From contig JAAKEZ010000003.1 of NCBI GenBank assembly GCA_018475625.1, forward strand, positions 1-64,000: DNA of 64,000 bases. Direction: 5' to 3'. The DNA comes from Candidatus Bathyarchaeota archaeon A05DMB-2 (GTDB lineage: Archaea; Thermoproteota; Bathyarchaeia; Bathyarchaeales; Bathycorpusculaceae). This document shows, piece by piece, positions 1,492 to 21,528 of the stretch; within the stretch, counting starts at the first letter, position 1, and the number at the start of each line of letters is the position of its first letter. The translations under genes were made by a program, and so were the position numbers. The notes below the pieces were generated by a model. The model saw only the letters and a list, made by a program, of their open reading frames with translations, searched no databases and was not told the origin of the DNA.

Positions 1492-1494
1492 GAC

Positions 1495-1848: not shown

Positions 1849-1883
1849 GACATCTGGCTCCGTGTGGTTTGATCACTTCTCTG

Positions 1884-3403: not shown

Positions 3404-3516
3404 TCAGTTACTTTTCCTTATTCAACAAATTCCTGAATAATAGAAGAGTATACATAGATGATAAGCAATATTAAAATAGACCTTTGAAGAGAAAAAATAG
3501 TTTCTTGGTGGTTTGA

Positions 3517-4536: not shown

Positions 4537-4578
4537 GCAACCGCTGCATAGTAAAAACATAAGGGAGTTGAGCGCCTT

Positions 4579-4836: not shown

Positions 4837-5248
4837 CAAATTGCTGGTTCGCTATCTAAGCCGCGACGAAATAGAGACTCTGAATAAGTACCTGGCTATA
4901 AAGCATGGTTTCAAGCATGCTGTACTTCAGAATGGCAACTTAGATCTTTGTGTTGAGACTCCTCAACGAACTTTGTTTGGCACCGAGCTGTATGCAGATA
5001 AGCTTTGCAAAGCTGCTGCGCTGATGAAGGAGATTAGTAAACTACATCCTTTTGCAGCTGGAAACAAGCGAACCGCCTTCTTGGCAACTACTGTATTCTT
5101 GGAGCTAAACGGCTATGCTTTGTCCTGCGAGACCCAAGAAGCAATCGACATCTCTCTTAAAACTGCCCAATGCGTCTGTGACATTCAAGAAATTAATCAA
5201 TGGTTGAAGAAATATACTCGTAGAAGCCAATGGCAACCCACTGAATAA
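4814..5248 (+). CDS. doc: Doc/Fic-family toxin
   Basis: A 144-residue protein with the Fic-fold signature HPFAAGNKRTAFLATTVFL near residues 78-96, close to the Doc form H-P-F-x-x-G-N-K-R-T, and the upstream helix pattern FGTELYADKLCKAAALMKEI typical of the Doc N-lobe. Doc phosphorylates elongation factor Tu, and Fic relatives transfer AMP; which applies here cannot be read from the motif. The TTG at 4814 is the longest start, and TTG at 4841 (LLVRYLSRDEIETLN) also fits Doc N-termini. It forms a likely toxin-antitoxin pair with the preceding gene. Confidence 0.75.
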   Translation: MKLWRSISKLLVRYLSRDEIETLNKYLAIKHGFKHAVLQNGNLDLCVETPQRTLFGTELYADKLCKAAALMKEISKLHPFAAGNKRTAFLATTVFLELNGYALSCETQEAIDISLKTAQCVCDIQEINQWLKKYTRRSQWQPTE

Positions 5249-5422
5249 CTCGCTCTTGTGGCACGCGCTTCTGCAGAGGAACACGTTTCTGAAGAGAAAC
5301 TTGAATAACGTGAGTTCTTCTTCCATCTGTTCTTTCTATGATAAATGTGGCAAAATTTTCAAGGCTACTACTGTGAAGGCACGCTGAGCCACACTATTCC
5401 GAAGCCCAAAGACATCAATGAT

Positions 5423-5593
5423 TTACTCTTTTTCTTTGTAGTAGCTCAGTCCTGCTGTTACGCCTGTCGAAATGGCGAACCACACAATTGTTGCTGTTAT
5501 GTCGCCTTGGCTGACTATGTAGGCTAAGCCTACTGAGGCGCCATTAAGAACAGCGAGAACTGCAGCCAGCTTTGGTTTGAATTGGAATCCCAC
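5423..5593 (-). CDS. Small two-helix membrane protein, holin-like
   Basis: A 56-residue protein, GTG start at 5593 overlapping the TAG of the portal gene, preceded by GGAGG. The N-terminal MGFQFKPKLAAVLAVLNGAS leads into one hydrophobic helix, a short loop (YIVSQGDI), and a second helix (TIVWFAISTGVTAGLSYY) ending in KEKE. Size and topology resemble small holins or virion membrane proteins. It lies in the virion operon right after the portal gene. A broken relative is at 3351-3403. Confidence 0.65.
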   Translation of the reverse strand: MGFQFKPKLAAVLAVLNGASVGLAYIVSQGDITATIVWFAISTGVTAGLSYYKEKE

Positions 5594-6804
5594 TATTTCG
5601 CCTCCTTTTCAGTTTCTTGCCATAGTTCCCAGCCGAATTTTGTGGCGTTTTTGCGAAACTCTTCTGAGCGTATGAAACCTAATTCTGCAGCTTTTATAAG
5701 GTCAGCCATAACAACCTCTGGGGTTTCGGGACTGCCCCAGTTAAGGCGAATCTGAGCCTCCGTTGGATTGAAGCCCGCTTGAGACAAAATCACGTCAAAA
5801 ACATCCCTTTCTACTTGCCTCTTGATGTAGCGTTGTATGGGGTTTATGAGCATATCTTGCAGTTCCAAAGCCGCCTTTGCTGAGGCTTCTGTGAATCCAG
5901 GAGTGCTGAACAGGCGGGGTAGTGGTGTTTCGCAGCCGAGGTAGAATTGGTTTATGATGTGGTCTATGTAGTATTCGAAGCGGGCTCTTGGGTCGAGCAT
6001 GACTGGTTTTATGTCGCCTTTGCCTCTGTAGAAGAGCCATGCTCCTTCTTCTGGGCGGTTTCTTATGGCTGATTCAAACTTTTTGATGTCTTCGTCTTTG
6101 GCGTTTTCCAGCAGTGTCAAGACGTCTGGTCCAGCGTATTTTTCGAAGATGCTGGGCATTATGCGTTCTATTTTGGCTTTCATCCAAGCGTAGCTGGGTC
6201 GCCTGTTTGAGTTAAAAATGAGCGTGTGGAGTAATACTTGGAGAATGCCTATTCCGAAGCCTGAGTTGCCAATGTTGTTTATTCTCCAATGAATAACGGC
6301 TTCTGGGACAAGTTCCTTGTCGGCTTCGGCGTAGCTGTGTCGTAGCTTGTATCCTTCAGTTTTGTATGGTATTTTCAAGCCTTCACCTATGTAGGCTTGC
6401 TTAACCTTCTCGACGGCATCAATTGGAAGCTTTTGTAAGCTGACAAGTTTTTTAGGCGTGATTTTAAGCCAGAAATCGTTTCCGCAAGCGATGAGAACTC
6501 TTGCCATGTTATTGAGCAAAGCGTCAAGGTTGACATCTTCATTAAATTGATCAATTGTCTGTTTGGCTTTTTCCATTTGAGGGTATTCTTCGTTGGCTGT
6601 CGTGTAAAACCCCATGCCAACGGTGGCAGAGGCAAGCAGGTCAACTGACGCTTTGCAAGTTGGGTCTCTTTCATAGAGCTTCATGACATCGGCGAGCGGT
6701 ATGTCTGGGGAAGTTTCAGTAACCGTTTGAGTGGACGGGTAAGCAGTGCCGGATCTTGTAGAGCGAGTGAAAGCCTCGACAAGTTTTTTGACGATGTTAT
6801 TCAC
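5593..6804 (-). CDS. Portal protein
   Basis: A 403-residue protein, GTG start overlapping the upstream winged-helix gene. The layout is that of phage portal proteins: an N-terminal wing (LYERDPTCKASVDLLASATV), a central region with VLIACGNDFWLKI and EAVIHWRINN, then the stem and C-terminal crown with FYLGCETPLPRLFSTPGFTE and ELQDMLINPIQRYIKR. The portal forms the dodecameric ring at the capsid vertex for DNA entry. Unusually, it lies downstream of the major capsid gene. Confidence 0.85.
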   Translation of the reverse strand: MNNIVKKLVEAFTRSTRSGTAYPSTQTVTETSPDIPLADVMKLYERDPTCKASVDLLASATVGMGFYTTANEEYPQMEKAKQTIDQFNEDVNLDALLNNMARVLIACGNDFWLKITPKKLVSLQKLPIDAVEKVKQAYIGEGLKIPYKTEGYKLRHSYAEADKELVPEAVIHWRINNIGNSGFGIGILQVLLHTLIFNSNRRPSYAWMKAKIERIMPSIFEKYAGPDVLTLLENAKDEDIKKFESAIRNRPEEGAWLFYRGKGDIKPVMLDPRARFEYYIDHIINQFYLGCETPLPRLFSTPGFTEASAKAALELQDMLINPIQRYIKRQVERDVFDVILSQAGFNPTEAQIRLNWGSPETPEVVMADLIKAAELGFIRSEEFRKNATKFGWELWQETEKEAK

Positions 6805-7045
6805 TTTTCAAACCGCCAAGAAACTTGATGCCTTCCTCGGTGATCTCGTAGGGAGCGCGGTGTTCCTTTCCGCTTTTCCTCACATAGCCATTCTCGATGA
6901 GAAAATCGAATATACTTTCAAAAGTGCCGTGAGTGCCACACCGCTTAACCGTTCTCTTCTCAAGCTCTGTGCGGCATAAAGGCTGTCTCCTAAGCTCCGC
7001 TAAGACGATTCTCGCAAGCTGCAATCTTTCAGACAGCCTTCTCAT
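6797..7045 (-). CDS. Small winged-helix protein in the virion operon
   Basis: An 82-residue protein. The helix-turn-helix lies about residues 20-55 (LCRTELEKRTVKRCGTHGTF, then IFDFLIENGYVRKSG), followed by a wing (PYEITEEGIKFLGGL). The pattern matches archaeal winged-helix DNA-binding proteins of the ArsR/PadR type. It overlaps both the zinc-protein gene upstream and the portal gene downstream, so it is co-transcribed with structural genes. A regulator or DNA-packaging accessory are both possible. Confidence 0.65.
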   Translation of the reverse strand: MRRLSERLQLARIVLAELRRQPLCRTELEKRTVKRCGTHGTFESIFDFLIENGYVRKSGKEHRAPYEITEEGIKFLGGLKSE

Positions 7046-7296
7046 GTTAAGACAACTTCCATGGGTTCTTGTGTACTATAGAAAGGCGGAGAGTGGTTGT
7101 TGCAAACCATTAGAATCTGCATGTCGCGCTTTCCGTCCTTGCCATAAGTTTCAGGTGCTAAGTCGGGCGTGTAAGGCTGCATCGTGGCTTCGCATATTGG
7201 ACAATAGCGCCAGCAGTCGCAGACGATTAAGTCGTTTTTGCGGTGCGAACGGTAGATTCTTCCGCACTTCGAGCATTTGCCTTCATATTTTTCCAT
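7042..7296 (-). CDS. Small zinc-ribbon protein
   Basis: An 84-residue protein with four Cys in two CxxC-like pairs (CSKCGR near residue 8, CDCWRYCPIC near residue 26), a zinc ribbon, followed by a tail without motifs. It has an ATG start and overlaps the winged-helix gene by four bases. It sits between the capsid and portal genes. Function is unknown; a DNA-binding or virion minor protein is possible. Confidence 0.65.
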   Translation of the reverse strand: MEKYEGKCSKCGRIYRSHRKNDLIVCDCWRYCPICEATMQPYTPDLAPETYGKDGKRDMQILMVCNNHSPPFYSTQEPMEVVLT

Positions 7297-7322
7297 TCAG
7301 CTTCTAACCTGGATGGCTACGA

Positions 7323-8276
7323 TTACAATGATGTGCTTATGTTCGTCATTTTTGCAACGGCTTTGCTTCGCAGGACTCCTAAGCCGAAGCGTGTAGTAGC
7401 CCTAACGCCGTATTCGCCTGTTTTTGCGTCTTGCCAGTCTTCAACGGTTACGTCTCTTCGCAAGAGCATGACTGCAGCCACACGGGTATCAATGGCATAA
7501 GCTGTTCCGTTGGGCACCAGTGTGCTTGCTTGGACGCGCATGCCTAAGACGCTTGTGACCAAGCCTTGTTCCACATCTGTTTGTCCAGCTGGCAAGTATT
7601 GGGCGTGAATGAATTTGTCATCGTTTAATAGTTGATGGAGCTGTGTTTCGTGCACTGCGAGCACTGTGGGTCGCCAGTTTTCGCCTCTGACGGCATTGTG
7701 AAGTTTTAGCAGTCCGTTCCAGCTTAGGGCAGCTCCGCCTCCGGCGATTGGGGCGCCTCCTGCAAGGTCTGCGTCTGCGATGGCTCCGTAAAGCGAGAGG
7801 ATTTTTGTTGTTTCGTTTTCGCCTAAGGCTCTGCCTACTTTTTCGATCATGTTGTCCATGACGTTCCATGTGGCGTCTTCTGCGAATTCTCGGGTCCATT
7901 CTTCGCTTGATTCTGCAAGGGTGTTTGTTTGGATGTCTACGGTGCTGGTTTTTTTGCCGCTGAGTCTTGTGATTGCGCCTTCAGCATAGTTGTAAGCCAC
8001 TGCTTTCTCGTCGAGTGGGAAGCGTTCTAACGGTTCGGTTGTCTGTTTTACGTTGATGATGTTTCTGCCGATTAGTTCCGGGTAGGCTGCTTCTATGAGG
8101 GTGTCGTGCATGCGTCCTAAGGCGCCTGTCATGTCGCTGAATAGTCCTTCTTTGACGCCTACTTCCATGTATCGCTTGAGAAACGGATGCGTCACTGCTC
8201 GTTCTTTGACTTTTTCAACGAGCAGTTTGAACTCGTTGTCTTTTTGCATTAGGCTTTCGAAAAGTTTTGGTTTCAT
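7323..8276 (-). CDS. Major capsid protein, HK97 fold
   Basis: A 317-residue protein. The N-terminal 60 residues are charged and helical. There follow the E-loop and spine region (IINVKQTTEPLERFPLDEKA, AESSEEWTREFAEDATWNVM) and the A-domain ending VLGMRVQASTLVPNGTAYAI, then TRFGLGVLRSKAVAKM. This is the pattern of tailed-virus major capsid proteins in archaeal proviruses. It is flanked by the cement-protein gene six bases upstream and the zinc protein downstream, supporting the assignment. Confidence 0.85.
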   Translation of the reverse strand: MKPKLFESLMQKDNEFKLLVEKVKERAVTHPFLKRYMEVGVKEGLFSDMTGALGRMHDTLIEAAYPELIGRNIINVKQTTEPLERFPLDEKAVAYNYAEGAITRLSGKKTSTVDIQTNTLAESSEEWTREFAEDATWNVMDNMIEKVGRALGENETTKILSLYGAIADADLAGGAPIAGGGAALSWNGLLKLHNAVRGENWRPTVLAVHETQLHQLLNDDKFIHAQYLPAGQTDVEQGLVTSVLGMRVQASTLVPNGTAYAIDTRVAAVMLLRRDVTVEDWQDAKTGEYGVRATTRFGLGVLRSKAVAKMTNISTSL

Positions 8277-8282
8277 GGCTTA

Positions 8283-8711
8283 TCACTTGTTTACGTGAAT
8301 GAAGAGTAGGTCGCCGTCGGTTGTGGTGGTTTCGAGTGCGGTTCCGAGTTTGCGGTTGTAGAATATGGTGTATGTTGCTGTTCCGCCTTCGTCTACGGGC
8401 TGGTCAACGAGCTGTATGACTTTGCCGTTGGCAGCGCTGCAAACGGCTTTTCCGCGTGTTATGGCTCCGCCAGCTTTGACTTTGACTCTTCCTCGAGTTA
8501 GAACTGGGCATGGTTGTCCTGAAGAGACGGTTTTTGTGGCTATGCCTATGGCGTCGTCTCCGCCAGGCGAAGGCGAAACCTTGTCGTCTGCTGAGAGATA
8601 GACTGGGTCGCCTTTGGTTACGGCTGCTGCGGCTTCGAAGGTTTCGATTATGGCGTTTGGATCGTCTGTTTCGCCTATTGCCATCCAAGTTTTTCCTGAA
8701 ACATCAGCCAT
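8283..8711 (-). CDS. Capsid decoration (cement) protein, DUF2190-like
   Basis: A 142-residue protein, Gly/Ala/Val-rich beta pattern: ETFEAAAAVTKGDPVYLSAD, DDAIGIATKTVSSGQPCPVL, VKVKAGGAITRGKAVCSA. The run of AvtkGdpVyl, iGiA and aGgaItrGkaV motifs is typical of DUF2190-type stabilising proteins that sit on tailed-virus capsids. It lies between the protease and capsid genes, as in many phages. No enzyme motif is present. Confidence 0.75.
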   Translation of the reverse strand: MADVSGKTWMAIGETDDPNAIIETFEAAAAVTKGDPVYLSADDKVSPSPGGDDAIGIATKTVSSGQPCPVLTRGRVKVKAGGAITRGKAVCSAANGKVIQLVDQPVDEGGTATYTIFYNRKLGTALETTTTDGDLLFIHVNK

Positions 8712-8712
8712 T

Positions 8713-9699
8713 TCATTTTACTCCGTTTTTAGTTTTGGTTTCAGACAGTTCATCCTGCTTACTTCCAACTGTGACTTTTTGTGACCGTGACTCAAGCCTG
8801 CGGACTACGCCACGCAACTCTTGACAGAGCCTTTGCGGGCCAAAGCTCCAGCTTCTTTCAACAATTGGGCTGGGCAAAACAGACTGGATGAGGCTCACAG
8901 CCTCTTTGATTGGGATTATTGGCTCGCTTGGAGAAGGCTCTTTGAGAAGACTTTCAGCCAAGCTGACTTCCTCATGTTCTTCTTTTGGATTTTCAGGCTC
9001 TTTCAGCTGCTCTTTTGTTTGCAGTTTCTCCATTATTTGGATGTTTGTTTCTGGTATTCCTGGCACAGCTACAAGGCTTAATTCGGCGTTGTGTAAGCCA
9101 TGTGGAACTTTTCCATCTAAAATATCGAGGGTTTCGTAGTCTGCGCCTACGCTAACGTGCTGCACTAAGCCCTTGCGAATCTTGTCGGCAACTTCGCTCT
9201 CGTAAATTTCCGCTTCATACCAGAGGGCGTGTCCATCCCAGTCGGTTTTGGTGACTTTGCCGACTGCGCTGTCAGCGGAAACGTGCTCAATGTAGACTGG
9301 TGAATTAACAAGTTTAGAAGCGAAAGCTTGCAGTTCTTCGGGCGTGTAAATGTTAAAGTTTCTGCTCACGCCACTGGTCATGGCTACGCCGCGAATCCGC
9401 AAGGGCTTGTCAACAATCTTTTCCAAAACTTGGAAGGGCAGTATGGCGGAAACGTGCTCTTTGACCAAGCCTTCACGGTGCTGTTCAAACCAAGCCTTAG
9501 CCTTGTCAAGCGTCCAGCCTTTCTCTTTGCTGAACAGGTAACTCTGCACAGTGGTGGTGTCTTCACCCTTAAGCTTGCCAACTACAGCTTTAATGCCTTC
9601 CTCATCGCTTATGCTTATTGTGCGGAGACTATCCTGTTCAAAATCTTCGGGGTTACGATGCCCAGAACGAATGTACTGCTCAGTTTCTTCCCAAACCAA
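8713..9699 (-). CDS. Prohead maturation protease with C-terminal scaffold-like tail
   Basis: A 328-residue protein, TTG start; the frame upstream closes without an ATG. The N-terminus (WEETEQYIRSGHRNP) and the segment KGWTLDKAKAWFEQH match the leader found on phage proteases. Residues about 100-220 carry the catalytic-type His (VYIEHVSADSAVGKV) and Ser (GLVQHVSVGADYETLD) of the prohead serine protease fold. Residues 235-328 are Glu/Pro/Ser-rich and helical, suiting a scaffold that is removed during assembly. It is the first recognisable virion gene at this end; no terminase precedes it. Confidence 0.8.
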   Translation of the reverse strand: MVWEETEQYIRSGHRNPEDFEQDSLRTISISDEEGIKAVVGKLKGEDTTTVQSYLFSKEKGWTLDKAKAWFEQHREGLVKEHVSAILPFQVLEKIVDKPLRIRGVAMTSGVSRNFNIYTPEELQAFASKLVNSPVYIEHVSADSAVGKVTKTDWDGHALWYEAEIYESEVADKIRKGLVQHVSVGADYETLDILDGKVPHGLHNAELSLVAVPGIPETNIQIMEKLQTKEQLKEPENPKEEHEEVSLAESLLKEPSPSEPIIPIKEAVSLIQSVLPSPIVERSWSFGPQRLCQELRGVVRRLESRSQKVTVGSKQDELSETKTKNGVK

Positions 9700-9998: not shown

Positions 9999-11360
9999 TC
10001 AGTTCTCTTTTTGCACGTAGTCCTTCAATGTTTGTCTGTCATTTTTCAAGAGTATTTTCTGGTCAAATGTGTCAAGAAGTAAGTCATGAGCCTTACTTGC
10101 TCCCTTCATTCCCCCTAAAGCGGAAAGTGGAGAGGTTTTTGAGTTCCAGTCAAATGATCTAAGTGGCAAAAGCATATCCGTCAAGATTTCCTCTCTTCGA
10201 AAATCAAGTCCCTGTTTTAAACATAATTGAAAAATGTCTTTCGCAAACCAATGCAACGAATAGACCCCCAGTGCCTTTAGAATCATGTACTCTCTTTCTG
10301 TCTTTTTGTCAAATGCTTCGGGAAACAGTTTCTTCAGAGCTTTCCAATAATTCTCTAGAAAACGAAGTTTATCATCATTGCTTAACTTAACGAAATTCTT
10401 GTCTGAGAGCAAAGGTTGAAGGGAAGAAACAAAGGAATTTAGCTGAATTGGCTTTCCAGTATCGCGCTTGCCACTCACGTTTATTTTACCTTCTAAAGGT
10501 GAAGATCTTTCCCTATTCAAAGCTATGCTTATCTCTGCACCAATGATCCTCCAGCTTTCTTTTTCAATTATCGAAAGCCCCTGAATACCACTTGCTTTAA
10601 TTCTATACAGTAACGCGTCTTTAAGAGAAGGACTTATGCCTTTTTGCGTCTTGTTAACGATGAAAAAAATCGTCCTTTCTATATCTTCCGGTGTAAAGCC
10701 ATTTTTATTTTGCTCAAGTTTACTGCCAATTTTTCCTGTAGCAACTATCGAATCGATGAAGACTATAGGAAGCTCATAATCCATTAAATCTGAAAAGAGT
10801 GAGGGGTTTAGGGATTTGGAAAAAACGAATTTTTCCCGAATTTTTCCAAATCCTCCCACCCTGTGTTGACCGTCTATAATCCAGATTGATCCCTTTTTCC
10901 TAGGTATCTTGAGAATACCGAAATCGCCATCCTGTTGTTTAAACTCGGTCTTTCTCAAGCTTACAAGCAAAGCGGGCATAACCGCCAAAGGGCAGTTTGA
11001 TAAGTACTCAACAAGTTCATTTGTTCTTTCTTCATACTGCTCTCGCTGGTAGCCTTCAAGTTCTTCTTCTTTGAATTTGTCCAGCTCATACAAATCTAAG
11101 ATGTCACTCACTTTCATCTTTCCTACGTACATTTCAATGTCTTTCTGAACAAGTTTGATCACTTTAACAAGGATTGAACTTCGTTGATTGATTGAGCTAC
11201 TTGCTAACTTGGAGAGAAGTCGCAATCTCTCATCTTGCTGTATTTTCTCTGGAAAGAAGAGATTCGGGTCGTTCCAACATTTCTCACAAACAAACTTTTC
11301 TCCGTTTTCGACAGGGTACATTTTACCGTTGATCTCATATCCGCAACATGAGCATATCAT
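9999..11360 (-). CDS. DGQHR-domain (DndB/DpdB-like) protein with N-terminal zinc finger
   Basis: A 453-residue protein. Residues 3-6 and 25-28 form two CxxC pairs (CSCCGYEI, CEKCWND), a zinc ribbon. The signature IWIIDGQHRVGGFGKI is near residue 155. DGQHR proteins include DndB, the regulator of DNA phosphorothioation, and related proteins of DNA-modification clusters; they have a ParB-like fold. The start overlaps the radical SAM stop (ATGA), so the two are co-translated. Likely partner: the radical SAM enzyme, which would be the modifying activity. The substrate is unknown. Confidence 0.75.
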   Translation of the reverse strand: MICSCCGYEINGKMYPVENGEKFVCEKCWNDPNLFFPEKIQQDERLRLLSKLASSSINQRSSILVKVIKLVQKDIEMYVGKMKVSDILDLYELDKFKEEELEGYQREQYEERTNELVEYLSNCPLAVMPALLVSLRKTEFKQQDGDFGILKIPRKKGSIWIIDGQHRVGGFGKIREKFVFSKSLNPSLFSDLMDYELPIVFIDSIVATGKIGSKLEQNKNGFTPEDIERTIFFIVNKTQKGISPSLKDALLYRIKASGIQGLSIIEKESWRIIGAEISIALNRERSSPLEGKINVSGKRDTGKPIQLNSFVSSLQPLLSDKNFVKLSNDDKLRFLENYWKALKKLFPEAFDKKTEREYMILKALGVYSLHWFAKDIFQLCLKQGLDFRREEILTDMLLPLRSFDWNSKTSPLSALGGMKGASKAHDLLLDTFDQKILLKNDRQTLKDYVQKEN

Positions 11361-12448
11361 TGAATCACCTCTAAAGGTTTCATGAATTCATTAAAAGCTT
11401 CATCAAAAGTATGACATTTCTCAACTTTAACCTTTAGCATTCCCTCATACGGTGGGAAAGCACCGCCGGAGCCTATGACACGTCTAGCTCTCTGCACTGC
11501 ATTTAATCTAATTTCGTCCCATTTTGGAGCTACATAGGTGTTCTTTGAAAGAGTATTTGTCGGTTGATAGCGCATAGGATAAGAAACTGCGCCCCAGCTT
11601 AATGTGTTCTTTATACGAGTAAACAAATCTTGTGGGCTGTCGGTAAAGTTGTAAAGAGCGTAAACAAGGATATTTCTGCCATCAATACCGTTTGACTTTA
11701 GAAGATTGATTGCTTTCCTGACGTAAGAACCCATGCCAATATAGTCATATGATAATCTTACAAAGCGATCTATCTTAACACGCGAGATCTTTTTCGCGAC
11801 ACGATCGGAAATCAACCTTGCATCAAGTCCTTGGTTAAAATCGACTCTAAGATCAAGCTCTTCGATTTCTTTGAGAACAGACTCCCATTTAGAACTTGCC
11901 AGAAAATTATTGTCAAAAAGTATCACTCGTTTGTGCCCTGGCCAAATCAAATGCCTTATACTGCTTTTCTCTGCTTTCATTTTGCCTTCTATGCGAGGAA
12001 CAGCACAAAAAGTACATGACCTTATGCATCCGCGAGAAGAGAAAATTATGCTGGCACTAACTTTTTTGTTCCAATCAGGGACCAGACTATAGTCAGGGCA
12101 AAGGTCTTCAGCTTCTGTGAAAATTCCCTTGAAAATGCGTTTTGGATTCACTCCACTGAGAGTTGCATGTTCAGGCATCAATGAAGCATAAAGTCCGCCA
12201 AGCCAGAGGTCAGCCTTGGGAAAAAGTATTGAATAGAACCGAACTGCTTCCCAGACAGGTTTCCAAGCCCAAGTAAAAAGACTCGTCACATAGATAATGT
12301 TAGGCTCTCTGGAAACATGCGTTGTTGTTCCTCTTACTAGTTCAGTTGTATCGCCTATTTTCTTGTGATATGAGGATAGCTTGAGTAAGCCCAGTGGAGG
12401 ATACCTAGTATAATATCTCGGCTCCACTAAGAGAACGTGTTTGGACAT
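11357..12448 (-). CDS. Radical SAM enzyme with B12-binding-like N-terminal domain
   Basis: A 363-residue protein. Residues 1-115 have a Rossmann-like pattern (LLVEPRYYTRYPPLGLLKL, ADLWLGGLYASLMPEHA) as in B12-binding radical SAM proteins, but without the cobalamin DxHxxG motif. The 4Fe-4S motif C-x3-C-x2-C is in RGCIRSCTFCAVP near residue 140, followed by the conserved VDFNQGLDARL segment. It is preceded by GGAGAG and a TTTAAAA box near 12510. It heads a two-gene operon with the DGQHR protein. The enzyme family is clear; its substrate is not, although the context points to nucleic acid. Confidence 0.75.
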   Translation of the reverse strand: MSKHVLLVEPRYYTRYPPLGLLKLSSYHKKIGDTTELVRGTTTHVSREPNIIYVTSLFTWAWKPVWEAVRFYSILFPKADLWLGGLYASLMPEHATLSGVNPKRIFKGIFTEAEDLCPDYSLVPDWNKKVSASIIFSSRGCIRSCTFCAVPRIEGKMKAEKSSIRHLIWPGHKRVILFDNNFLASSKWESVLKEIEELDLRVDFNQGLDARLISDRVAKKISRVKIDRFVRLSYDYIGMGSYVRKAINLLKSNGIDGRNILVYALYNFTDSPQDLFTRIKNTLSWGAVSYPMRYQPTNTLSKNTYVAPKWDEIRLNAVQRARRVIGSGGAFPPYEGMLKVKVEKCHTFDEAFNEFMKPLEVIQ

Positions 12449-12564
12449 GCGATCTCTCCTCTATTCCTCATTCTAAGTGGATCGTAGATGTTTGTCGTCA
12501 AGAGGTTTTAAAGTTTACCAAATGCGATTGCTTCTTTTGGTGTTGGGGTAAGTAAATACTACTC

Positions 12565-12587
12565 TTAGGTATTATTAGGTATATAAG
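12565..12587 (+). promoter_or_regulatory. TATA box and tandem operator of the small RHH gene
   Basis: TTAGGTAT occurs at 12565-12572 and again at 12575-12582, with starts 10 bases apart (one helical turn), running into the TATA box TATATAAG at 12580-12587. Repressor binding to the repeats would block the TATA box. The gene served encodes a ribbon-helix-helix protein starting at 12620. Confidence 0.6.
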
Positions 12588-12619
12588 ATTTTTATTACAT
12601 GCCATCCTTCTGATTATCG

Positions 12620-12769
12620 ATGGTTGGCTTGGCAAAAAAGAAAACTTCTGTCACAATTGATATCGATCTTCTTCTGTGGATTGAGAAAAAGGTTAAGGAA
12701 AAGAAGTTTGCAAGTGTTTCCCATGCAGTTGCATATGCTCTCGAAGAGTTGAAGAAAAGAGAGCCCTAA
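12620..12769 (+). CDS. Small ribbon-helix-helix regulator (49 aa)
   Basis: ATG at 12620 to TAA at 12767-12769. The protein has the strand KTSVTIDIDLLLWIEKKV, a turn KKFASVSHAVAYALEELKK and a short tail: a classical CopG/ParD-type ribbon-helix-helix with the phase F-A-S-x-S-H-A-x-x-Y-A-L seen in archaeal regulators. It lies on the opposite strand between the two island operons, ending eight bases from the AlbA_2 gene stop. It is well placed to repress itself and the neighbouring radical SAM operon. Confidence 0.8.
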   Translation: MVGLAKKKTSVTIDIDLLLWIEKKVKEKKFASVSHAVAYALEELKKREP

Positions 12770-12776
12770 CGTACCT

Positions 12777-13721
12777 TTATCGTAGATCTGGCCAGTGATC
12801 CTTGATGTAATCGGTCGCTTCACTTATGTCAAGTGGTTGGCTAGAATTCCCTGATCGAATGAAGAACTCAGTTTTTCCCTCGTATTTTAAGTAAACAGGA
12901 CGAGGCGATTTTTTTATTACAACCATGGCAATTTCCTTGCCCTCTATTTCGCCAAACTTCAAGTTGATTAGTGGTCTATTTATTTTACCTAGGTAGTTAT
13001 TTACTGTATTCGTGAAGTGAAGCTCAAAATCGTCCTTATTTCCTTTAGTCTGTGCCAAATCTTTGTCTAGACCCAGTATCTTTTTATTGTTATCCACTCC
13101 AATAAGCAATATTCCTCCTTCTGAGTTCATAAAAGACGAGATTGTTCTGGCCACTATCATTCCCATCAACTTGCTGGGTTGCTGTTTTTTATAATCCCAA
13201 ATGAGTGATGATTTGAATTCAACGGAATTGCTTTCCCCCATGTTTATCAGATCAGTAATCGAAAGGTCAATTATCTCTTCCAATGTTTGTGGTTTCTCTT
13301 GACTTTCTACATTCTCTTTGTATTTTCGCAAAAGTTCATTTTCAAGTTTTTTGATGTAGGATCCATAATCCCCACTAAAGACCTTGGCTTTTAAAATTGC
13401 GATACCACCGGTCGCGTATTCCTCAGCAATTGAATAGATCTTTTGTTCATCAAGCAAAACATTTAGGTTTTCCTCAGTTGCAACTGCTATCGATTTTATT
13501 AGAGTTCGCTCTTCGTCAGTAAAGTATTCTTCTCGAACGTATCCTTCTTTGTTCTTCAATGGGATTCTTCCGCCTTCATTAAAACCCACAACCATAGCAG
13601 CGAGCCATACTTCTTTGCTTTGGCAATTTGCGAATGGGCTGTCTCTTTCTTTGAGTCTATTAAAATCTGCAAGGTCTTTCTTGTCAACGTAGACCCGGTC
13701 AACTTTCTTCTTTTCTGTCAT
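12777..13721 (-). CDS. AlbA_2 (Schlafen-type) DNA-binding domain protein
   Basis: A 314-residue protein. Residues about 158-300 carry the AlbA_2 (formerly AAA_4) pattern: ESNSVEFKSSLIWDY, TISSFMNSEGGILLIGVDNN and KEIAMVVIKKSPRPVYLKYE, ending with FFIRSGNSSQPLD. This domain binds nucleic acid, and Schlafen relatives cleave RNA. The N-terminal 150 residues are unassigned and contain FANCQSKEVWLAAMVVGFNE. The start overlaps the SMC-like ATPase stop (ATGA), so it is the last gene of the four-gene operon. It probably acts as a DNA-targeting partner of the ATPase. Confidence 0.75.
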   Translation of the reverse strand: MTEKKKVDRVYVDKKDLADFNRLKERDSPFANCQSKEVWLAAMVVGFNEGGRIPLKNKEGYVREEYFTDEERTLIKSIAVATEENLNVLLDEQKIYSIAEEYATGGIAILKAKVFSGDYGSYIKKLENELLRKYKENVESQEKPQTLEEIIDLSITDLINMGESNSVEFKSSLIWDYKKQQPSKLMGMIVARTISSFMNSEGGILLIGVDNNKKILGLDKDLAQTKGNKDDFELHFTNTVNNYLGKINRPLINLKFGEIEGKEIAMVVIKKSPRPVYLKYEGKTEFFIRSGNSSQPLDISEATDYIKDHWPDLR

Positions 13722-15712
13722 TGTATAGTCTTCACCTCGGCAAGATTGCCATATTCTTTTTCTATTACATCAATGATGTAAGTTTTGCCTACACTGGCTG
13801 ATAACTCCTGTTTTACCTCTGGCGAGTATTCTTTTTCGGTGACTAGCAAAGTGACTTGTTTGCCTTTCAGGTAATTCGGGAGATTTCTTGCTATGCTTTG
13901 ACTGGGTTCAGAAGATATTCTTGCAAGTGGTGTGTCAATTATAATAGGCACATCAAAACCAGAGACACTATTTAAAGCCGCCATGAAAGATAAAGCGCAC
14001 ACTTGTCTTTCGCCTGCAGAAAGAGTACCTAGTCCTTCTCTGCCAGAGACATGAGGAACAGAGATATTGTACTCATCATCAATACATACACCTCTGTAAG
14101 TATCTTTCTTCCAGATTAAAGTCAAAAACTGCTCACTTGTCTTCTTTTCGATTTCATCTTTGACTCTCTTCATTATTCTATCTCTAACTTCACAAGCACA
14201 TTTAATACCCTCATCGCAAAGGGCTAATAATTCCAAAAGCGATTTATGCCTCATTTCCTTTTTTAGTTCTTGAGTTAATTCTGAATTGAAAGCTCTAATC
14301 ATCTTTTCTCGTCTTTCTATCTGAGCTTGCTGCTTGGCAATATCCCCAATTAGTCGCTCTTTTTCTTTCTCGTATCTTTCCCGTTCTTTCTCCCAAAGCT
14401 TAATGTTCTCAACATTGGATTGGCTAATTTCTTGGTTAATCTTGCTCAATTTCTGCTCTTTTTCTACTTTCAACTCTTGAAGTCTCTTAACTTTTCTGCC
14501 AAGCTCGATTATTTGTTGTGGGAAGCCATTTACGCTTTCCATCATTTTTCTTATAAGCGTATTAGCTGCAATAATTTCATTGCTTTTCTCAGAAAGTTGA
14601 CTTTCTGTCAAATATGTTTCCACTTTTTTGCGTCTTATGGTTGAATATTCATCCTTTCCAGAAATATCACTTCCACAGATGCATTTCCCTTTTTTAAGCA
14701 GACTCTCAATGAATATGGTTCGATAAGGAGGCGGTATTAGTCCTGCTTCTCTCCTCCCTTCAATCAAGTTTCTCGTTTTCAATAGCGCACCGTAGGAAAG
14801 AAGAATTGGCATATTGCTTCGCAGCAGTTTCAGGCGCACCTCCTCATTTTCTGCTATGTCCTCGTCGATAGTCGTGATATCTTTTCTTAGTTCTTCCCGT
14901 TGCTCTTCAAGCTGCTGTATGTTTTCTAGAGACGAATTTCTCAATTTTTCGCTAAATTCCTTTTCCAATCGTTCAGCTTCACTTTTCTTTTGAAATAATT
15001 CTTCAAGTACACTTTTGTCTGTTTCCAAAGAACGTGTATGAAGTTCTACATATTCTCGTAGTTCGTTAGCCCTTGAACTTAACCCGTGAGCAGTTTTTAG
15101 GAGTTCTCTCTTTCGAGCAGTTAGATGTTCTATTAGTTTCTCAAATAAGTCTAATTGTGAAATTTGAAAAACAGCGTTTTTGATGTCTCTACCTGTGTTC
15201 TCTTTAAAGTAATCATCCATTCTTTCTCCATCAAAGAAGAAATATTCTTCTATTGATGGGGGAATTCGATTGTCAATAATATATTGTGCATCATCGCCAT
15301 AAATTGGTCCTATCCAATCTCGCCCTCTTTGCTGCATTACTGTAAGAGAATGAGGAGATGTAATCTCTGCAAGGTTCCCATCTTTTCCTTTTTTATAGTG
15401 CTTACAGCGAGTCACAACCATCTTATTGCCGTCATTTTCTATGAACTGTATTTCCACTTTTACTTCAAATATATCGTTAGTACTCTCATGCAAAGTCGTG
15501 GTATTTACAATTGGCAAACCCTTGTATTTGCTGTCAACATGGAATTCCTCGCCGAATAAGCACCAAGTTATTGCATTTAACAAGTTCGTCTTTCCTGCTC
15601 CGTTAACACCTTGAATAACTGTGAAGTTTTTTGAAAGAGAACGGGAAAACTCTATTCGCACGCTTCGGTATTGCCTAAAATTTTTCAAGTCTATATAATC
15701 TATTTCCATCAC
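13718..15712 (-). CDS. SMC/Rad50-like ATPase of the DndD type
   Basis: A 664-residue protein. The Walker A motif GVNGAGKTNLLNAITW is near residue 38, with an N-terminal LKNFRQY strand as in Rad50 and RecF. EEYFFFDGERMDDYF (near residue 170) is the FFFDGE signature shared by DndD-type ATPases. Long coiled coils flank a CxC element (KCICGSD, about 334). The ABC signature LSAGERQVCALSF and Walker B IIIDTPLARI are near the C-terminus. DndD couples ATP hydrolysis to phosphorothioation or restriction. Here no DndC or IscS-like gene accompanies it. Start-stop overlaps link it to both neighbours. Confidence 0.8.
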   Translation of the reverse strand: MMEIDYIDLKNFRQYRSVRIEFSRSLSKNFTVIQGVNGAGKTNLLNAITWCLFGEEFHVDSKYKGLPIVNTTTLHESTNDIFEVKVEIQFIENDGNKMVVTRCKHYKKGKDGNLAEITSPHSLTVMQQRGRDWIGPIYGDDAQYIIDNRIPPSIEEYFFFDGERMDDYFKENTGRDIKNAVFQISQLDLFEKLIEHLTARKRELLKTAHGLSSRANELREYVELHTRSLETDKSVLEELFQKKSEAERLEKEFSEKLRNSSLENIQQLEEQREELRKDITTIDEDIAENEEVRLKLLRSNMPILLSYGALLKTRNLIEGRREAGLIPPPYRTIFIESLLKKGKCICGSDISGKDEYSTIRRKKVETYLTESQLSEKSNEIIAANTLIRKMMESVNGFPQQIIELGRKVKRLQELKVEKEQKLSKINQEISQSNVENIKLWEKERERYEKEKERLIGDIAKQQAQIERREKMIRAFNSELTQELKKEMRHKSLLELLALCDEGIKCACEVRDRIMKRVKDEIEKKTSEQFLTLIWKKDTYRGVCIDDEYNISVPHVSGREGLGTLSAGERQVCALSFMAALNSVSGFDVPIIIDTPLARISSEPSQSIARNLPNYLKGKQVTLLVTEKEYSPEVKQELSASVGKTYIIDVIEKEYGNLAEVKTIQ

Positions 15713-15912
15713 TTGCTCTCCTGGCGGCGACGCGTTTCAGCAGTCTCCATTATGATCCTATCGTAATCTTTTCCATAAAGAGGGCTTTTAATATGAGAAT
15801 TTCTTAACTCGACGTTCAAAAGCGCTTTAAGCATATCCTTGATTTCTTTGGGGAATTCGCTTTCTTCAATCGTTTCAATGATTCTTCTGCTAACGCCTGA
15901 CATATTTCTCAC
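15709..15912 (-). CDS. Small conserved-context protein of the island operon (67 aa)
   Basis: A 67-residue basic helical protein (MSGVSRRIIETIEESEFPKE, EIKDMLKALLNVELRNSH). It overlaps the SMC-like gene start by four bases and follows the helicase stop by five, so it is an integral operon member and likely a complex subunit. No family was recognised. Size and place are reminiscent of the small DndE-type or adaptor subunits of modification systems, but no sequence evidence supports homology. Confidence 0.6.
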   Translation of the reverse strand: MRNMSGVSRRIIETIEESEFPKEIKDMLKALLNVELRNSHIKSPLYGKDYDRIIMETAETRRRQESK

Positions 15913-15917
15913 CTATA

Positions 15918-18065
15918 TCATATCCCATATATTTCCTCCAAATTTGCCATTATTTCTAGGCATTCGGAAGAATTTTGAGCAGAACTTGCAAAGTCACGGT
16001 ATCTATCTAATTCCTTTGCTATTATTTTTCTTTCCAATTCTCCTAATTCCTGCGGAATGGTAGCCTTCAACAGAGGTTCAACTATAATGTCATGGATAAT
16101 TGCTTGTTTTTTATTTGGAAATTTTCTCAGTACGCGCCCTCTTCTTTGTATGTATTCTCGAGGATTGCCAGAATTATCCAGCATGATAGCGAGGCGTGCT
16201 GGAGGAACATCAACTCCTTCATCGAGACATTTCATAGAAACCAGAGCATGGTATTTTCCCTCAGAGAATTGTTTGATAAGAAATTCTCTTTCTGAAAGCC
16301 CGCCAAACTTGTTTTCTGGTCTGATACCTTCTTGCTCGGTAAACTTGTGCTGAATAATGTTCTTCTTGTTAAGAATATCTTGCACCGCGCGTATTTGATG
16401 AGGTGAACAGTAAACTAAACAGTACTTAACTTCTTTAACATCATCCAAAATTTTTTCAAGAATGGCGAGTTTATTCCGTGCATTTCTAATTATTTTTTGT
16501 CTCTTTATGCAAAGCAAAGTGAATATTTCGTCTCTTTCTTCTTCATTTTTTGAGCGATAATATGCCTTAGCTATCTTACGTGTTTCCTCCTCATACTTTT
16601 TCATTTCCTCTGGCGTTAAATAACTGAAATGCGGCTTGTATATGTAAGGAACCAAGTATCCTGCCTTAATGGCATCTCTGAGAGAAAACTCGAAAACAAC
16701 ATCACCAAAATAATTAAAGATTTTTTCAGTGCCCTTAAGATCAAACCATCTCTTAGGAGTAGCGCTTAACCCCAATCTGTAATCATATTCTTCTATAAGC
16801 CCCAGCCTCCTTTGGGGCGCTCCTATACCATGAACCTCATCTATCACCAAAAGCAATCGTTGGCTGGGGTCGCGTTTCTTGCTTTCGCGAATCATGTTAA
16901 TGAAATCGACTGTAGAAAAAGTATTGTGCGTTGTTAGAACCAAAAGTCGCTCACTAACTCCATTTTCAATATCAAGTAAACTGTCAACTAATGTGTCTTT
17001 CCACTTGTTCTGGCTACTATCGGCAACAATTTTGTCGCAATTAACCCCAAATTTGTTGAACTCCTTAGTCCACTGTTCACTCAAATGGATAAAGGGACTA
17101 CTTATCACTGCCACGACTTTAGTTTCTCCTGCAAACAATTCCTTGATACAACCTATCGCAGTAAGTGTTTTACCGGTACCTGTAGCCATCTCAAAAATGC
17201 CTTTTTTATTATTACCAAACCAGTTCTCAATTGCCTTCTTCTGATAATCTCTCAGTTCAAAAACCTGCCTATGATTCGCAGGGTGAACCCATCGGTCAAG
17301 ATCCAACTCGTCAATATCATTTGGGGCTATCTCGATAAGTCTTTCCTCTATTGCTCTAGGTATATCTACAACCTTTGTGCGCTTTGCTTGCGCATCCCAG
17401 AACTTTTTGAATTTTAATAAATCCGCCTCAAAATAGTCTCTTTCAGATTCAACCCAATTTCGAAAAACTTTGAACTCTTCTATGTTATTTTGCCATCCTT
17501 TTGCACTCTCATTGTCCGACCCGCTAAAAGATATTTTATCTCCATTGAGATCTTCCATGATCCCCACTTTTTGGTGAAAAATTCCTTGCTTTTCCACGTT
17601 TCTATAATCAAGAGGATAATCATTTTCATCAAGAACAATGGCTACTTTAATTTTTAGCCTTTTATTAGCCACCATCCACCCTAAGGCACGGACATGATCT
17701 TTTATAAATTCGTCTTCTATATTATCAAGCTCTCTTAACAGAGTTTTTTCTACTACCTTTTCTGGACTCTCGATGGCTTGTTTGATTGCCTCGATATCTT
17801 CTCTTCGAAACGTCGCTCCAGTTACTATCTTCACCGTACCGCCATTACGGATCAATCCAGAGATCCCTTTAGCTGCAATAGCAAGACTTGTTGAGGAAAA
17901 GAAACCTGTGAGTCGTGAATAATGAATCGAAACAGATAATGTTGGAACATAAAAGTCGGCAACTATGTTATCCGTATCTGAATCATACGACTTTTTCAGT
18001 CCAAGCTCCCGTAAACTCATTCTCTTTTCCTCGCTTTTTGGCGGGAAGCTGAAACTTTTGCGCAT
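15918..18065 (-). CDS. PLD-type nuclease fused to SF2 helicase
   Basis: A 715-residue protein. The N-terminal 250 residues look like a phospholipase-D nuclease: LTGFFSSTSLAIAAKGI, then GIFHQKVGIMEDLNGDKISF with H-x-K (H164, K166) followed by acidic E171/D172, and SGSDNESAKGW. The SF2 helicase core follows: Walker A MATGTGKTLTAIG (near 295), LLLVIDEVHG, LGLSATPKRW, then helicase C with FTEQEGIRPENKFGGL and QRRGRVLRKFP. Such PLD-helicases occur in restriction and defence loci. ATG at 18065, or the Met at residue 16 (18020), which suits the CTTTAAAAG box at about 18070. First gene of a four-gene operon. Confidence 0.85.
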   Translation of the reverse strand: MRKSFSFPPKSEEKRMSLRELGLKKSYDSDTDNIVADFYVPTLSVSIHYSRLTGFFSSTSLAIAAKGISGLIRNGGTVKIVTGATFRREDIEAIKQAIESPEKVVEKTLLRELDNIEDEFIKDHVRALGWMVANKRLKIKVAIVLDENDYPLDYRNVEKQGIFHQKVGIMEDLNGDKISFSGSDNESAKGWQNNIEEFKVFRNWVESERDYFEADLLKFKKFWDAQAKRTKVVDIPRAIEERLIEIAPNDIDELDLDRWVHPANHRQVFELRDYQKKAIENWFGNNKKGIFEMATGTGKTLTAIGCIKELFAGETKVVAVISSPFIHLSEQWTKEFNKFGVNCDKIVADSSQNKWKDTLVDSLLDIENGVSERLLVLTTHNTFSTVDFINMIRESKKRDPSQRLLLVIDEVHGIGAPQRRLGLIEEYDYRLGLSATPKRWFDLKGTEKIFNYFGDVVFEFSLRDAIKAGYLVPYIYKPHFSYLTPEEMKKYEEETRKIAKAYYRSKNEEERDEIFTLLCIKRQKIIRNARNKLAILEKILDDVKEVKYCLVYCSPHQIRAVQDILNKKNIIQHKFTEQEGIRPENKFGGLSEREFLIKQFSEGKYHALVSMKCLDEGVDVPPARLAIMLDNSGNPREYIQRRGRVLRKFPNKKQAIIHDIIVEPLLKATIPQELGELERKIIAKELDRYRDFASSAQNSSECLEIMANLEEIYGI

Positions 18066-18464: not shown

Positions 18465-19223
18465 CTAAACTACATAATCGAGTTTACTCAAATAATCTTT
18501 ATCAAAAACACCATTACGCAATAAATTTCTAACTTCTTCTAACACTCGTTCGTTTCTCTCCGCCCAATCAGGATAATGCACAAGCACCTCAACCCCACAC
18601 GGATGCGAAACATCTCCAACCTTAATGACAACCCCATTACTCTTCGCAAACAAATCAATCGTCAACCGAGGCAACCGATGCCCCACATCAAACACATAAT
18701 GCGCACCCTTAAACCTGACACCAGCCAAAACCCCCTCCAAAACCTTAACATCAGTAATCAAACCCGTAAAACTAAACCCATTACAAACAAGCTGATACGC
18801 CCTACCCAAATTAGCAGGCTTCCGCACATACAAATTTACCCGTCCAGTCTCAAACCACTGCAACCTTCCAAGCTTATCACGCCACAACAACCACCTATTC
18901 CGCGCCCTACTAACCACCCAACCCTTCTCCAAAGCCTTCGCCCTGTCAACACCAGCAGGCACATAACACCATCCACGCCAAGCATGAATTGAACACTTTG
19001 AACCCCGCTCATGCCCATAGTGATACTTCCACTCTGCCCTCAAATTGCTCAAGTAACGCCAATACTTCCGATAAGGCAAATTCAACAACTTACACAAAGG
19101 CTTAGCAGTCAACAAAGGATTCTCATCAAGCAAAGCAAAAACCCTCTGCCGAAGACTTTCACTACCACTATCTCCACAGTGGAAAACCCGCCGCCTCAAA
19201 GACCCAGCAGAAAACTCAACCAA
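18465..19223 (-). CDS. Orphan element protein with N-terminal helix-turn-helix-like region
   Basis: A 252-residue protein, TTG start, four bases after the stop of the Cys-rich gene. Residues 20-65 (SESLRQRVFALLDENPLLTA, LCKLLNLPYRKYWRYLSNLR) look like a winged-helix. The centre has many Trp and Gly (WRGWCYVPAGVDRAKALEKG) and the C-terminus is mixed alpha/beta (VIKVGDVSHPCGVEVLVHYP). Base composition is skewed: the plus strand is very C/A-rich here, giving long shadow frames. I do not recognise a family; it probably belongs to an integrated element. Confidence 0.6.
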   Translation of the reverse strand: MVEFSAGSLRRRVFHCGDSGSESLRQRVFALLDENPLLTAKPLCKLLNLPYRKYWRYLSNLRAEWKYHYGHERGSKCSIHAWRGWCYVPAGVDRAKALEKGWVVSRARNRWLLWRDKLGRLQWFETGRVNLYVRKPANLGRAYQLVCNGFSFTGLITDVKVLEGVLAGVRFKGAHYVFDVGHRLPRLTIDLFAKSNGVVIKVGDVSHPCGVEVLVHYPDWAERNERVLEEVRNLLRNGVFDKDYLSKLDYVV

Positions 19224-19977: not shown

Positions 19978-21528
19978 CTATTGTAGCATTGTGATTTCAG
20001 CTTGCCTTATTTGGCGCTTCGCTATCCCTGCGAAAGCCTTGTAGAATTCCTTAAGAATACGCTTGTACCCCTCATCTACGAAAGACAAGTCGATAAGATT
20101 ATCAGTCCAGCGAAGGCTATGCTCCGCGCACTGGAACAGCAACTGCTTGTGCAGTTCAGTCATCGCAGCATCCTTAAACCAATCCTCATTCTTCAGCCTG
20201 CCCAATGGAACGAAAAACAGCGGCACAATCAAGCTGCGAAAACCCTCAAGGTCATCCATCAACTCCATCGTCCTCAAAATATCCTCCTCCTTCTCCTCAG
20301 GAAGCCCCACAATCAAAGTGCAAGCCGGAACCATCATGTTATCATGCATCAAGCCCATGCCGTCCCGCACAACCTCAGGCCAATCCTCCGCTTTGAACGG
20401 ATGAGCCTTCGCAGGCATAATCCTCTTAGCAAGCTCAGCGGAACCCGTTTCTATACCCACTTCCGCACCCCACCACGATTGATTTTGGAGTATAATTTCG
20501 GAGAGTTCTGAGAAAAGCTTCGGCTTTGAAGCAGCTGCTGCTAGTGAACAGTGACTCCAACTGACAGCTGGCACCTTGCTCTTAACCGACTTGTGAAGCC
20601 TCAGCAACTTCTCATCATCAGGCACCGTTGTATGTGAACCGTACAGCATGACGTCTTCAGCATGTAGACAGATGACACGATTCTTACCTAATTCAACGTT
20701 GACTAATAGCTCCCGCATTATCTTGTCTAAAGGATACCAACGTAGAGGTCGGAGGGTGACATTACAGAATTCACATCCCCTACAGCAGCCCCTGCCAATT
20801 TCTATCAGACCATTAATAGACGGCTGAACAATATCCGGTATATCCTCCGAGCAAGGTGCGTCTTTAGCGGCAACCTCATAGAAAGTGGGAAGCATCTCGC
20901 CGTTTATGGCAGCTTTGACGATTTTTCCGATAACGTTTTCGGCTTCGCCTTCAACCACGCAGTCGATGACTCCTTCTTTGAGAAGCTGCGGTCTATAGCG
21001 GAACTGCCAAGCGCCTGGACCCCCCACTATAACTTTTAACCCACGCTTTTTTGCTTCCCTCATAACAGGGCTGTTCACTAACGCGTGGAAATACTTCGCT
21101 AAAAAAGGCTCTTTCTTGAAAGCAGACGCTAGAGTTGTTGATGCTGGGCCAAAACCAAAGGGATCCATGGTGTGAATTCCGACAACTTTGGCATTTTTAA
21201 TGTGTTTTCGGAGATGCTGTGGACTGACAGTTAAAACGTTAAAGCCCCCTTTTAGAAGTTGAGCTTCGATTTTTCTTAGGCCATAGGGCGCTGCTACGGG
21301 TACTCCGTTTTTTGTTTTCAAGGGCGGAAAAAACAAATAACTGTATAAGATGTTAGGGATGAAGTTGGGCGGTGCACATGTGCCGAAACCTAAAAACTCG
21401 TTGCCATGATAGTTGCTCATTAATGTTCGGTCAGCAGTTAAAAGCACGTCAATATTTCTGTCCGCTGTCAAAGGATGCTTCATTTTATAAGCGAAAGAGG
21501 TTTGGACGCTAGGCAACGTCACCACCAT
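19978..21528 (-). CDS. B12-dependent radical SAM protein
   Basis: A 516-residue protein. Residues 85-200 hold a B12-binding-type Rossmann domain (VVGIHTMDPFGFGPAS, GLKVIVGGPGAWQFR, GVIDCVVEGEAENVIGKI). The radical SAM motif is in IEIGRGCCRGCEFCNVTLRP (C-x3-C-x2-C, near residue 247), followed by the TIM-barrel part with GAEVGIETGSAELAKR and TLIVGLPEEKEEDILRTMEL. Archaeal members include the enzymes that form GDGT rings (GrsA/B) and other methyl or C-C bond chemists; assignment to one of these is not possible by eye. It stands alone. Confidence 0.75.
   Translation of the reverse strand: MVVTLPSVQTSFAYKMKHPLTADRNIDVLLTADRTLMSNYHGNEFLGFGTCAPPNFIPNILYSYLFFPPLKTKNGVPVAAPYGLRKIEAQLLKGGFNVLTVSPQHLRKHIKNAKVVGIHTMDPFGFGPASTTLASAFKKEPFLAKYFHALVNSPVMREAKKRGLKVIVGGPGAWQFRYRPQLLKEGVIDCVVEGEAENVIGKIVKAAINGEMLPTFYEVAAKDAPCSEDIPDIVQPSINGLIEIGRGCCRGCEFCNVTLRPLRWYPLDKIMRELLVNVELGKNRVICLHAEDVMLYGSHTTVPDDEKLLRLHKSVKSKVPAVSWSHCSLAAAASKPKLFSELSEIILQNQSWWGAEVGIETGSAELAKRIMPAKAHPFKAEDWPEVVRDGMGLMHDNMMVPACTLIVGLPEEKEEDILRTMELMDDLEGFRSLIVPLFFVPLGRLKNEDWFKDAAMTELHKQLLFQCAEHSLRWTDNLIDLSFVDEGYKRILKEFYKAFAGIAKRQIRQAEITMLQ

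Follow-up and report, generated by a model that had tools for sequence, protein, structure and literature searches.

A radical-SAM/DGQHR gene pair beside a PbeABCD restriction module in a Bathyarchaeota genome as putative writer of a DNA self-mark

We analysed a stretch of 64,000 nucleotides (nt) from Candidatus Bathyarchaeota archaeon A05DMB-2 (contig JAAKEZ010000003.1, positions 1 to 64,000; called the window below), which is the start of contig C78 in a metagenome-assembled genome (MAG) of 2.48 Mb that is 96% complete and comprises 110 contigs. Between positions 9999 and 18065 two neighbouring operons are found on the minus strand: a four-gene operon (18065-12777) that, judged by sequence comparison, is the Dnd-linked restriction module PbeABCD, and a two-gene operon (12448-9999) in which a gene for a radical S-adenosylmethionine (SAM) protein is followed by a gene for a protein with a DGQHR motif. 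PbeABCD is the known part of this locus, whereas the radical-SAM/DGQHR pair is new in a restriction context. The genes are tightly packed: start and stop codons overlap by 4 nt at 15709-15712, 13718-13721 and 11357-11360, and a 5-nt gap separates the PbeA gene from the gene for a protein of 67 amino acids (aa). A preliminary description, drawn from the letters alone, had placed six open reading frames (ORFs) here in two operons with start-stop overlaps, and their coordinates, strand and overlaps hold. The small regulator that it saw between the operons exists as a 49-aa ORF, but its ribbon-helix-helix (RHH) label is tentative, library profile searches giving no convincing family match and weak ones at best. 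The features are as follows.

15918..18065, minus strand: PbeA, HKD (phospholipase D, PLD)-type nuclease fused to a superfamily 2 (SF2) helicase, 715 aa (PADLOC PbeA, 5.4e-230)
15709..15912, minus strand: PbeB, small protein, 67 aa, GTG start (position and identity to cognates)
13718..15712, minus strand: PbeC, CxC-type ATP-binding cassette (ABC) ATPase, DndD-like, 664 aa, GTG start (PADLOC PbeC, 1.4e-134)
12777..13721, minus strand: PbeD (DndE-like) fused to SLFN_AlbA_2, 314 aa (identity to stand-alone PbeD; SLFN_AlbA_2, 4.1e-22)
12620..12769, plus strand: small 49-aa ORF between the operons, possible RHH regulator (weak library matches)
11357..12448, minus strand: radical-SAM protein, proposed mark writer, 363 aa (phrog_9298, 2.7e-65)
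9999..11360, minus strand: DGQHR/DndB-DpdB-like ParB-superfamily protein, proposed writer helper, 453 aa (PF14072, TIGR03187)

Within the first operon, PbeA also matches TIGR04095 (dnd_restrict_1) at 1.2e-129, under the family cut-off, and contains HQK...GSDN at 164-185 (the HKD-type HxK...GSxN), a Walker A motif GTGKT and DEVH. PbeB has no match in any family library or curated model; it shows 43-48% identity over 46-58 aa to the small ORF that lies between pbeA and pbeC elsewhere, and the PbeB of the published system measures 66 aa (PMC6459918). PbeC reaches 2.8e-54 against the PADLOC model of DndD and 169.8 bits against TIGR03185 (DndD), which is under the equivalog threshold of 245.85. Its motifs are CIC at 344-346, Walker A GVNGAGKTN, LSAGE and FFFDGE, the last of which had already been pointed out as a DndD signature. 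The 314-aa protein had been described as an AlbA_2 protein. Its C-terminal half is indeed SLFN_AlbA_2 (residues 163-297), but the N-terminal half (residues 1 to about 140) resembles dnd_assoc_4/PbeD: it is 54% identical to the stand-alone 146-aa PbeD of a related genome (G293) and matches TIGR04062 (dnd_assoc_4) at 1.9e-10 and 41 bits, under the cut-off of 74. A PbeD-AlbA_2-type protein is also seen beside a methylase-type Pbe system (L034:7256-8176, genome G154), so such a fusion does not depend on the type of writer. Elsewhere (L277, G591:C83) PbeA is part of a 2207-aa open frame, where it is apparently joined to a second large domain.

The first operon, which the preliminary description had counted as undescribed, is thus a system already in the literature (PMC6459918, PMC10853773). 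With the DndCDEA-PbeABCD systems of haloarchaea (PMC6459918) it shares the four-gene order, a PbeB of 66-67 aa and an ABC-ATPase PbeC; it differs in the additional AlbA_2 domain of PbeD and in the lack of dndCDEA, in whose stead the locus has the radical-SAM and DGQHR genes. With the CxC ABC-ATPase/DndE systems surveyed by Iyer and Aravind in 2024 (PMC10853773) it has in common a CxC PbeC, a PbeA composed of HKD nuclease and SF2 helicase, a small protein and a DndE-like PbeD. Some of those systems have a DNA methylase at the same place, but a radical-SAM partner is not part of the survey, where radical SAM is mentioned solely with regard to DndC. PbeABCD requires a DNA mark and all four of its genes (PMC6459918). 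In the same paper 320 of 553 pbeAC occurrences are without dndCD, and what these pair with is given as unknown.

DndC and a cysteine desulfurase had both been reported missing. For DndC this applies at the locus and, by profile search, genome-wide: TIGR03183 gave no match at E<=0.001 in this 96%-complete assembly. As for the desulfurase, general Aminotran_5 and IscS/NifS-type enzymes are present elsewhere in the genome, though none at the locus. Such enzymes occur in 14 of 14 control genomes as well and are unable to make phosphorothioate in the absence of DndC. A PAPS (3'-phosphoadenosine-5'-phosphosulfate)-reductase-like gene on contig C77, the sole strong one in the genome, was considered as DndC and rejected: it has no DndC match and sits in a virus-like region.

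The radical-SAM protein (isoelectric point 9.6) carries CxxxCxxC at 141-148. In a family alignment of 73 sequences C141, C145 and C148 are invariant, together with DNN at 179-181. The protein scores under the cut-off of PF04055 and its relative in L069 over it; PADLOC holds no model for it, and a PDB sequence search with the family profile gave no match. The AlphaFold model has a predicted local distance difference test (pLDDT) score of 94, and the best solved matches in Foldseek are TsrM (top), MtaB and RNA-bound MiaB, with template-modelling (TM) scores of 0.60-0.64. The predicted fold has the same two domains as these enzymes, an N-terminal Rossmann domain and a radical-SAM barrel, at an identity of 12-15%, and the invariant cysteines of the window family are those of CxxxCxxC only. 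Since no further cysteine is invariant, an auxiliary iron-sulfur cluster as in MiaB is unlikely. A B12-type radical-SAM profile match extends over the N-terminal domain (88%), which resembles cobalamin-type domains; PF02310, the B12 domain of Pfam, gave no match. A literature search over the main text of open papers and a few preprints found no published description of a radical-SAM enzyme with Pbe/DndD, DISARM, defence islands, MORC or DNA modification.

Its 453-aa partner passes the cut-offs of both PF14072 (DndB; 1e-13, 51.5 bits, cut-off 29.1) and TIGR03187 (DGQHR; 4.4e-34, 118.5 bits, cut-off 58.85), in agreement with the DndB-like nature ascribed to it before. It also matches DpdB of PADLOC (2.9e-17) and fails NF041060 (DpdB; 58.9 bits, cut-off 300). 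The DGQHR motif is located at 163-167, and the protein has two N-terminal CxxC pairs. As the AlphaFold model is moderate (pLDDT 77) and has no structural match below E=0.001, the role of this protein is read from its sequence families. The pair is reminiscent of Dpd 7-deazaguanine modification (DpdA plus DpdB), where a writer enzyme likewise goes together with a ParB-superfamily DGQHR/DpdB protein. The differences are that the proposed writer at our locus is a radical-SAM protein rather than a tRNA-guanine transglycosylase (TGT) homologue, and that its partner stays under the DpdB equivalog cut-off; no DpdA (TGT) is present at the locus, to which the search for it was confined, the rest of the genome not being included. 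DpdB is reported to have an ATPase role in 7-deazaguanine insertion (PMC12839542), and by analogy the DGQHR protein may work in the same way. In Bathyarchaeota BA2 two different DGQHR genes stand in tandem behind the radical-SAM gene (L036:11035-13758).

BA2 is also the closest named relative of the window's radical-SAM gene. All six genes are found again in G293, which belongs to the same family and a different genus, at 43-63% identity; there the two operons diverge rather than stand in tandem, and PbeD lacks AlbA_2. Because the genes recur in an altered layout, the arrangement in the window is more than chance. In Methanolinea (L038) PbeA, PbeC, PbeD, radical SAM and DGQHR are all visible; the co-occurrence of both operons in other genomes, on which the preliminary description had staked its proposal, is therefore found. 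In Methanoregula UBA247 the radical-SAM/DGQHR pair stands behind DISARM-like drmA-drmB-drmC, and PbeA is elsewhere in the genome.

Scanning 84,980 species genomes with the radical-SAM family alignment alone yielded 80 loci. PbeC is present in 18 of them (Phycisphaerae, Coriobacteriia, Actinobacteria, Lokiarchaeota, methanogens and others), with PbeA/PbeD mostly directly adjacent. About ten contain DISARM-like DrmA/B/C, with or without DrmE (PADLOC/Pfam on representative loci: DrmA 2e-91, DrmB 1e-19, DrmC 9e-15, DrmE 6e-13). A GHKL ATPase weakly similar to type II restriction enzymes is found in 16, a ParB_N protein in 6-10 (in part accompanied by an unknown 500-aa protein), and in 17 the proposed writer has a DGQHR or DGERR protein beside it. 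Methylase motifs are visible in 3 of the 18 Pbe loci and in 1 of the 9 DrmB loci, and motif patterns revealed the SGGKDS motif of DndC in none of these 18 and 9 loci. Compared to DISARM (DrmABC plus DrmE/DrmD plus methylase), sisters of the window's radical-SAM gene stand behind drmA-drmB-drmC(-drmE), mostly with no visible methylase, whose position the radical-SAM gene takes; drm genes are absent from the window itself.

Some of these loci contain further proteins beside the radical-SAM gene. A 1100-aa protein without Pfam/PADLOC match replaces DrmE in the methylase-less, DISARM-like loci of cluster c9 (L088:6653-9991; Methanoperedens and others). A ParB_N protein with a DGERR motif and the unknown 500-aa protein adjoin the radical-SAM gene in L049:7484-10004, L069 and L060 (c6/c12), and are possibly a new restriction pair. 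Two family-less proteins (about 387 and 550 aa) precede it in L059, L061 and L071 (c20/c21), with a GHKL ATPase intervening in two of these loci.

Conversely, loci were retrieved by PbeA alone from 139 species genomes of the family of Methanobrevibacter curvatus. PbeA occurs in 38 genomes, the radical-SAM gene in 25 and both in 23, such that PbeA accompanies 23 of the 25 radical-SAM genomes against 15 of the 114 others (Fisher p=3e-14, not corrected for kinship). A radical-SAM gene adjoins 20 of the 40 Pbe loci, at a distance of -41 to 1738 nt (<525 nt in 17/20); 11 have a methylase only, 2 a PP-loop (DndC-like) gene and 7 no writer, several of these on short contigs. Pbe loci in the phylum of the window have three kinds of writer, namely a DndA-like cysteine desulfurase (L031, genome G207), an amino-methylase (L034, genome G154) and the radical-SAM candidate (window, L011), each occupying the same place. 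A tree of 82 radical-SAM genes requires at least 19 switches of partner module, and supported sister pairs have a different module each (L038 Pbe/L039 DISARM, L081 Pbe/L087 DISARM, L079 Pbe/L080 DISARM). The clade of the window gene comprises BA2, G293, Methanolinea, Methanoregula and Marinitoga camini virus 1 (98% in the Shimodaira-Hasegawa-like approximate likelihood ratio test, SH-aLRT). Going by these gene neighbourhoods, the radical-SAM linkage is recurrent and exchangeable with at least three unrelated restriction modules; by analogy, such partner switching resembles that of methylases among restriction systems.

The enzyme is not confined to cellular genomes. A family-alignment search shows that more than 550 viral contigs encode it, and in some of them genes for DNA methylases or for ParB-like or PAPS-reductase-like proteins lie close by. 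When viral contigs were scanned with a single sequence, either the window radical-SAM protein or PbeA, there were no matches. The copy of Marinitoga camini virus 1 is 47% identical over 98% of the length, and the related Marinitoga camini virus 2 gave no match to the enzyme. In Bacteroides phage LoVEphage (L118:4781-7891) a PAPS-reductase-like gene lies a few genes from the radical-SAM copy, with DNA methylases on both sides; this region is possibly a viral modification block. The conjugative plasmids pR132505 (Rhizobium) and pNL1 (Novosphingobium aromaticivorans), whose hosts are cultured, carry DGQHR, radical-SAM and GHKL ATPase genes consecutively; on pNL1, from strain DSM 12444, there are two DGQHR genes. 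Among named strains, Methanobrevibacter curvatus DSM 11111 and M. filiformis DSM 11501 combine the radical-SAM gene with PbeABCD, and Methanococcoides vulcani SLH33 combines it with a DISARM-like system.

The reading that we favour, with a probability of about 0.68, is that the radical-SAM/DGQHR pair writes a DNA self-mark that is read by PbeABCD, the two parts together forming an antiviral system akin to restriction-modification. The ABC-ATPase/DndE-like pair PbeC/PbeD would locate DNA sites and the HKD-nuclease/helicase PbeA would act on DNA without the self-mark, while the radical-SAM protein and its DGQHR partner would mark host DNA as self. The mark would most likely sit on a base, result from a reaction of the radical C-methylation or methylthiolation type, and stand in for phosphorothioation (DndCDEA) or methylation. 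We infer DNA as the substrate and a self-mark as the product, as well as this chemistry and the reading of the mark by PbeABCD. Viral carriage of the enzyme, like that of viral methylases, supports a protective DNA mark. The earlier suggestion that a radical-SAM enzyme gives a different DNA mark gains from the repeated swapping of modules and from the position in the writer slot, whereas the mark itself stays putative. Apart from that, several observations weigh against this reading. None of the fold matches acts on DNA: MiaB and MtaB act on tRNA and TsrM on tryptophan. Outside the clade of the window, Pbe-linked radical-SAM copies usually have no adjoining DGQHR gene, and the BA2 pair (L036) has no PbeA in the assembly, its contig ending there. 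The methylase counts of the 80-locus scan stem from motif patterns, not curated models, and are a lower bound. In the converse sample a methylase is nearby, too, in 5 of the 20 Pbe loci with a radical-SAM gene, and exclusivity is a trend only (p=0.11).

Other explanations were weighed against the same observations. The enzyme could be a defence effector or signal maker, yielding a viperin-like free nucleotide or a MiaB-like tRNA modification, that restriction modules keep as an extra layer. Such a role would suit the nearest solved folds, which include the tRNA methylthiotransferases MiaB/MtaB, the anaerobic hosts, and the fact that phages carry tRNA-acting genes too (a tRNA ligase is near the LoVEphage copy). 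We nevertheless regard it as unlikely: the radical-SAM gene takes the slot of DndCDEA or methylases, has a recurrent DGQHR/ParB partner and swaps among restriction types, and the viral copies near DNA methylases and ParB genes fit a protective DNA mark. Radical-SAM enzymes that repair DNA exist, for example spore photoproduct lyase, and the chemistry of the mark is not fixed, which would allow for an eraser or repair enzyme of lesions or marks caused by the restriction module or by viral modification. That seems very improbable, as it would leave the missing writer of these systems unexplained and the fold matches methyl/methylthio transferases, not photoproduct lyase.

Mere clustering in defence islands is hardly more convincing. 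Although the genes are in variable regions beside a provirus and several loci hold other defence genes, this would not predict the tight adjacency with often overlapping reading frames, PbeA in 23/25 radical-SAM genomes of one family, or the missing methylases or DndC in most loci where the radical-SAM gene is present. Least credible is ordinary phosphorothioation supplied to PbeABCD from elsewhere in the genome, with the radical-SAM/DGQHR pair as an unrelated neighbour. Housekeeping cysteine desulfurases are available and the assembly is an incomplete MAG in many contigs, but DndC gives no match, the PAPS-reductase-like gene in the virus-like region of C77 is not DndC, and both halves of the locus are linked across genera and phyla.

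As to the surroundings of the locus, virus head genes adjoin it at the contig end (window 100-9699), among them a major capsid gene (7323-8276), a portal-like gene (5593-6804) and a prohead-protease-like gene (8713-9699). Contig C77 of the same genome, which starts with a PP-loop gene and genes of tail-like type, may hold the second half of this provirus. Near the locus no att-like repeat or tRNA marking a provirus boundary was found, and a search among relatives of the neighbouring gene for an empty insertion site yielded none; the defence locus may be viral cargo. On the other side, upstream of PbeA, a basic 252-aa protein (18465-19223) has a weak helix-turn-helix match and no family. Further along lies a gene for a cobalamin-type radical-SAM protein (19978-21528) that is kept in 5 of the 6 relatives searched (67-91% identical). 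Since its homologue in G178 (L014/L090) directly adjoins another member of the proposed writer family, the gene possibly indicates a hotspot of insertion.

In dozens of unrelated genomes a radical-SAM enzyme and a DndB-like helper hold the slot of a methylase or of sulfur marking, which suggests a self-mark that is as yet undescribed. On balance the evidence leans towards a radical-SAM family of bacteria, archaea and viruses that acts as a portable writer of such a mark for PbeABCD, DISARM-like, GHKL-ATPase and ParB-linked systems. The self-mark of the 320 of 553 pbeAC without phosphorothioation genes is an open question (PMC6459918), to which the radical-SAM enzyme offers a concrete and widespread candidate answer. 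If true, this would account for many Pbe orphans and for many DISARM loci that lack a methylase, and phrog_9298 would be a viral protection gene. The family would then be a writer class alongside SAM-dependent methylases, phosphorothioation and 7-deazaguanine insertion, would bring a mark made by radical chemistry into restriction biology, and would offer a new enzyme class for DNA modification.

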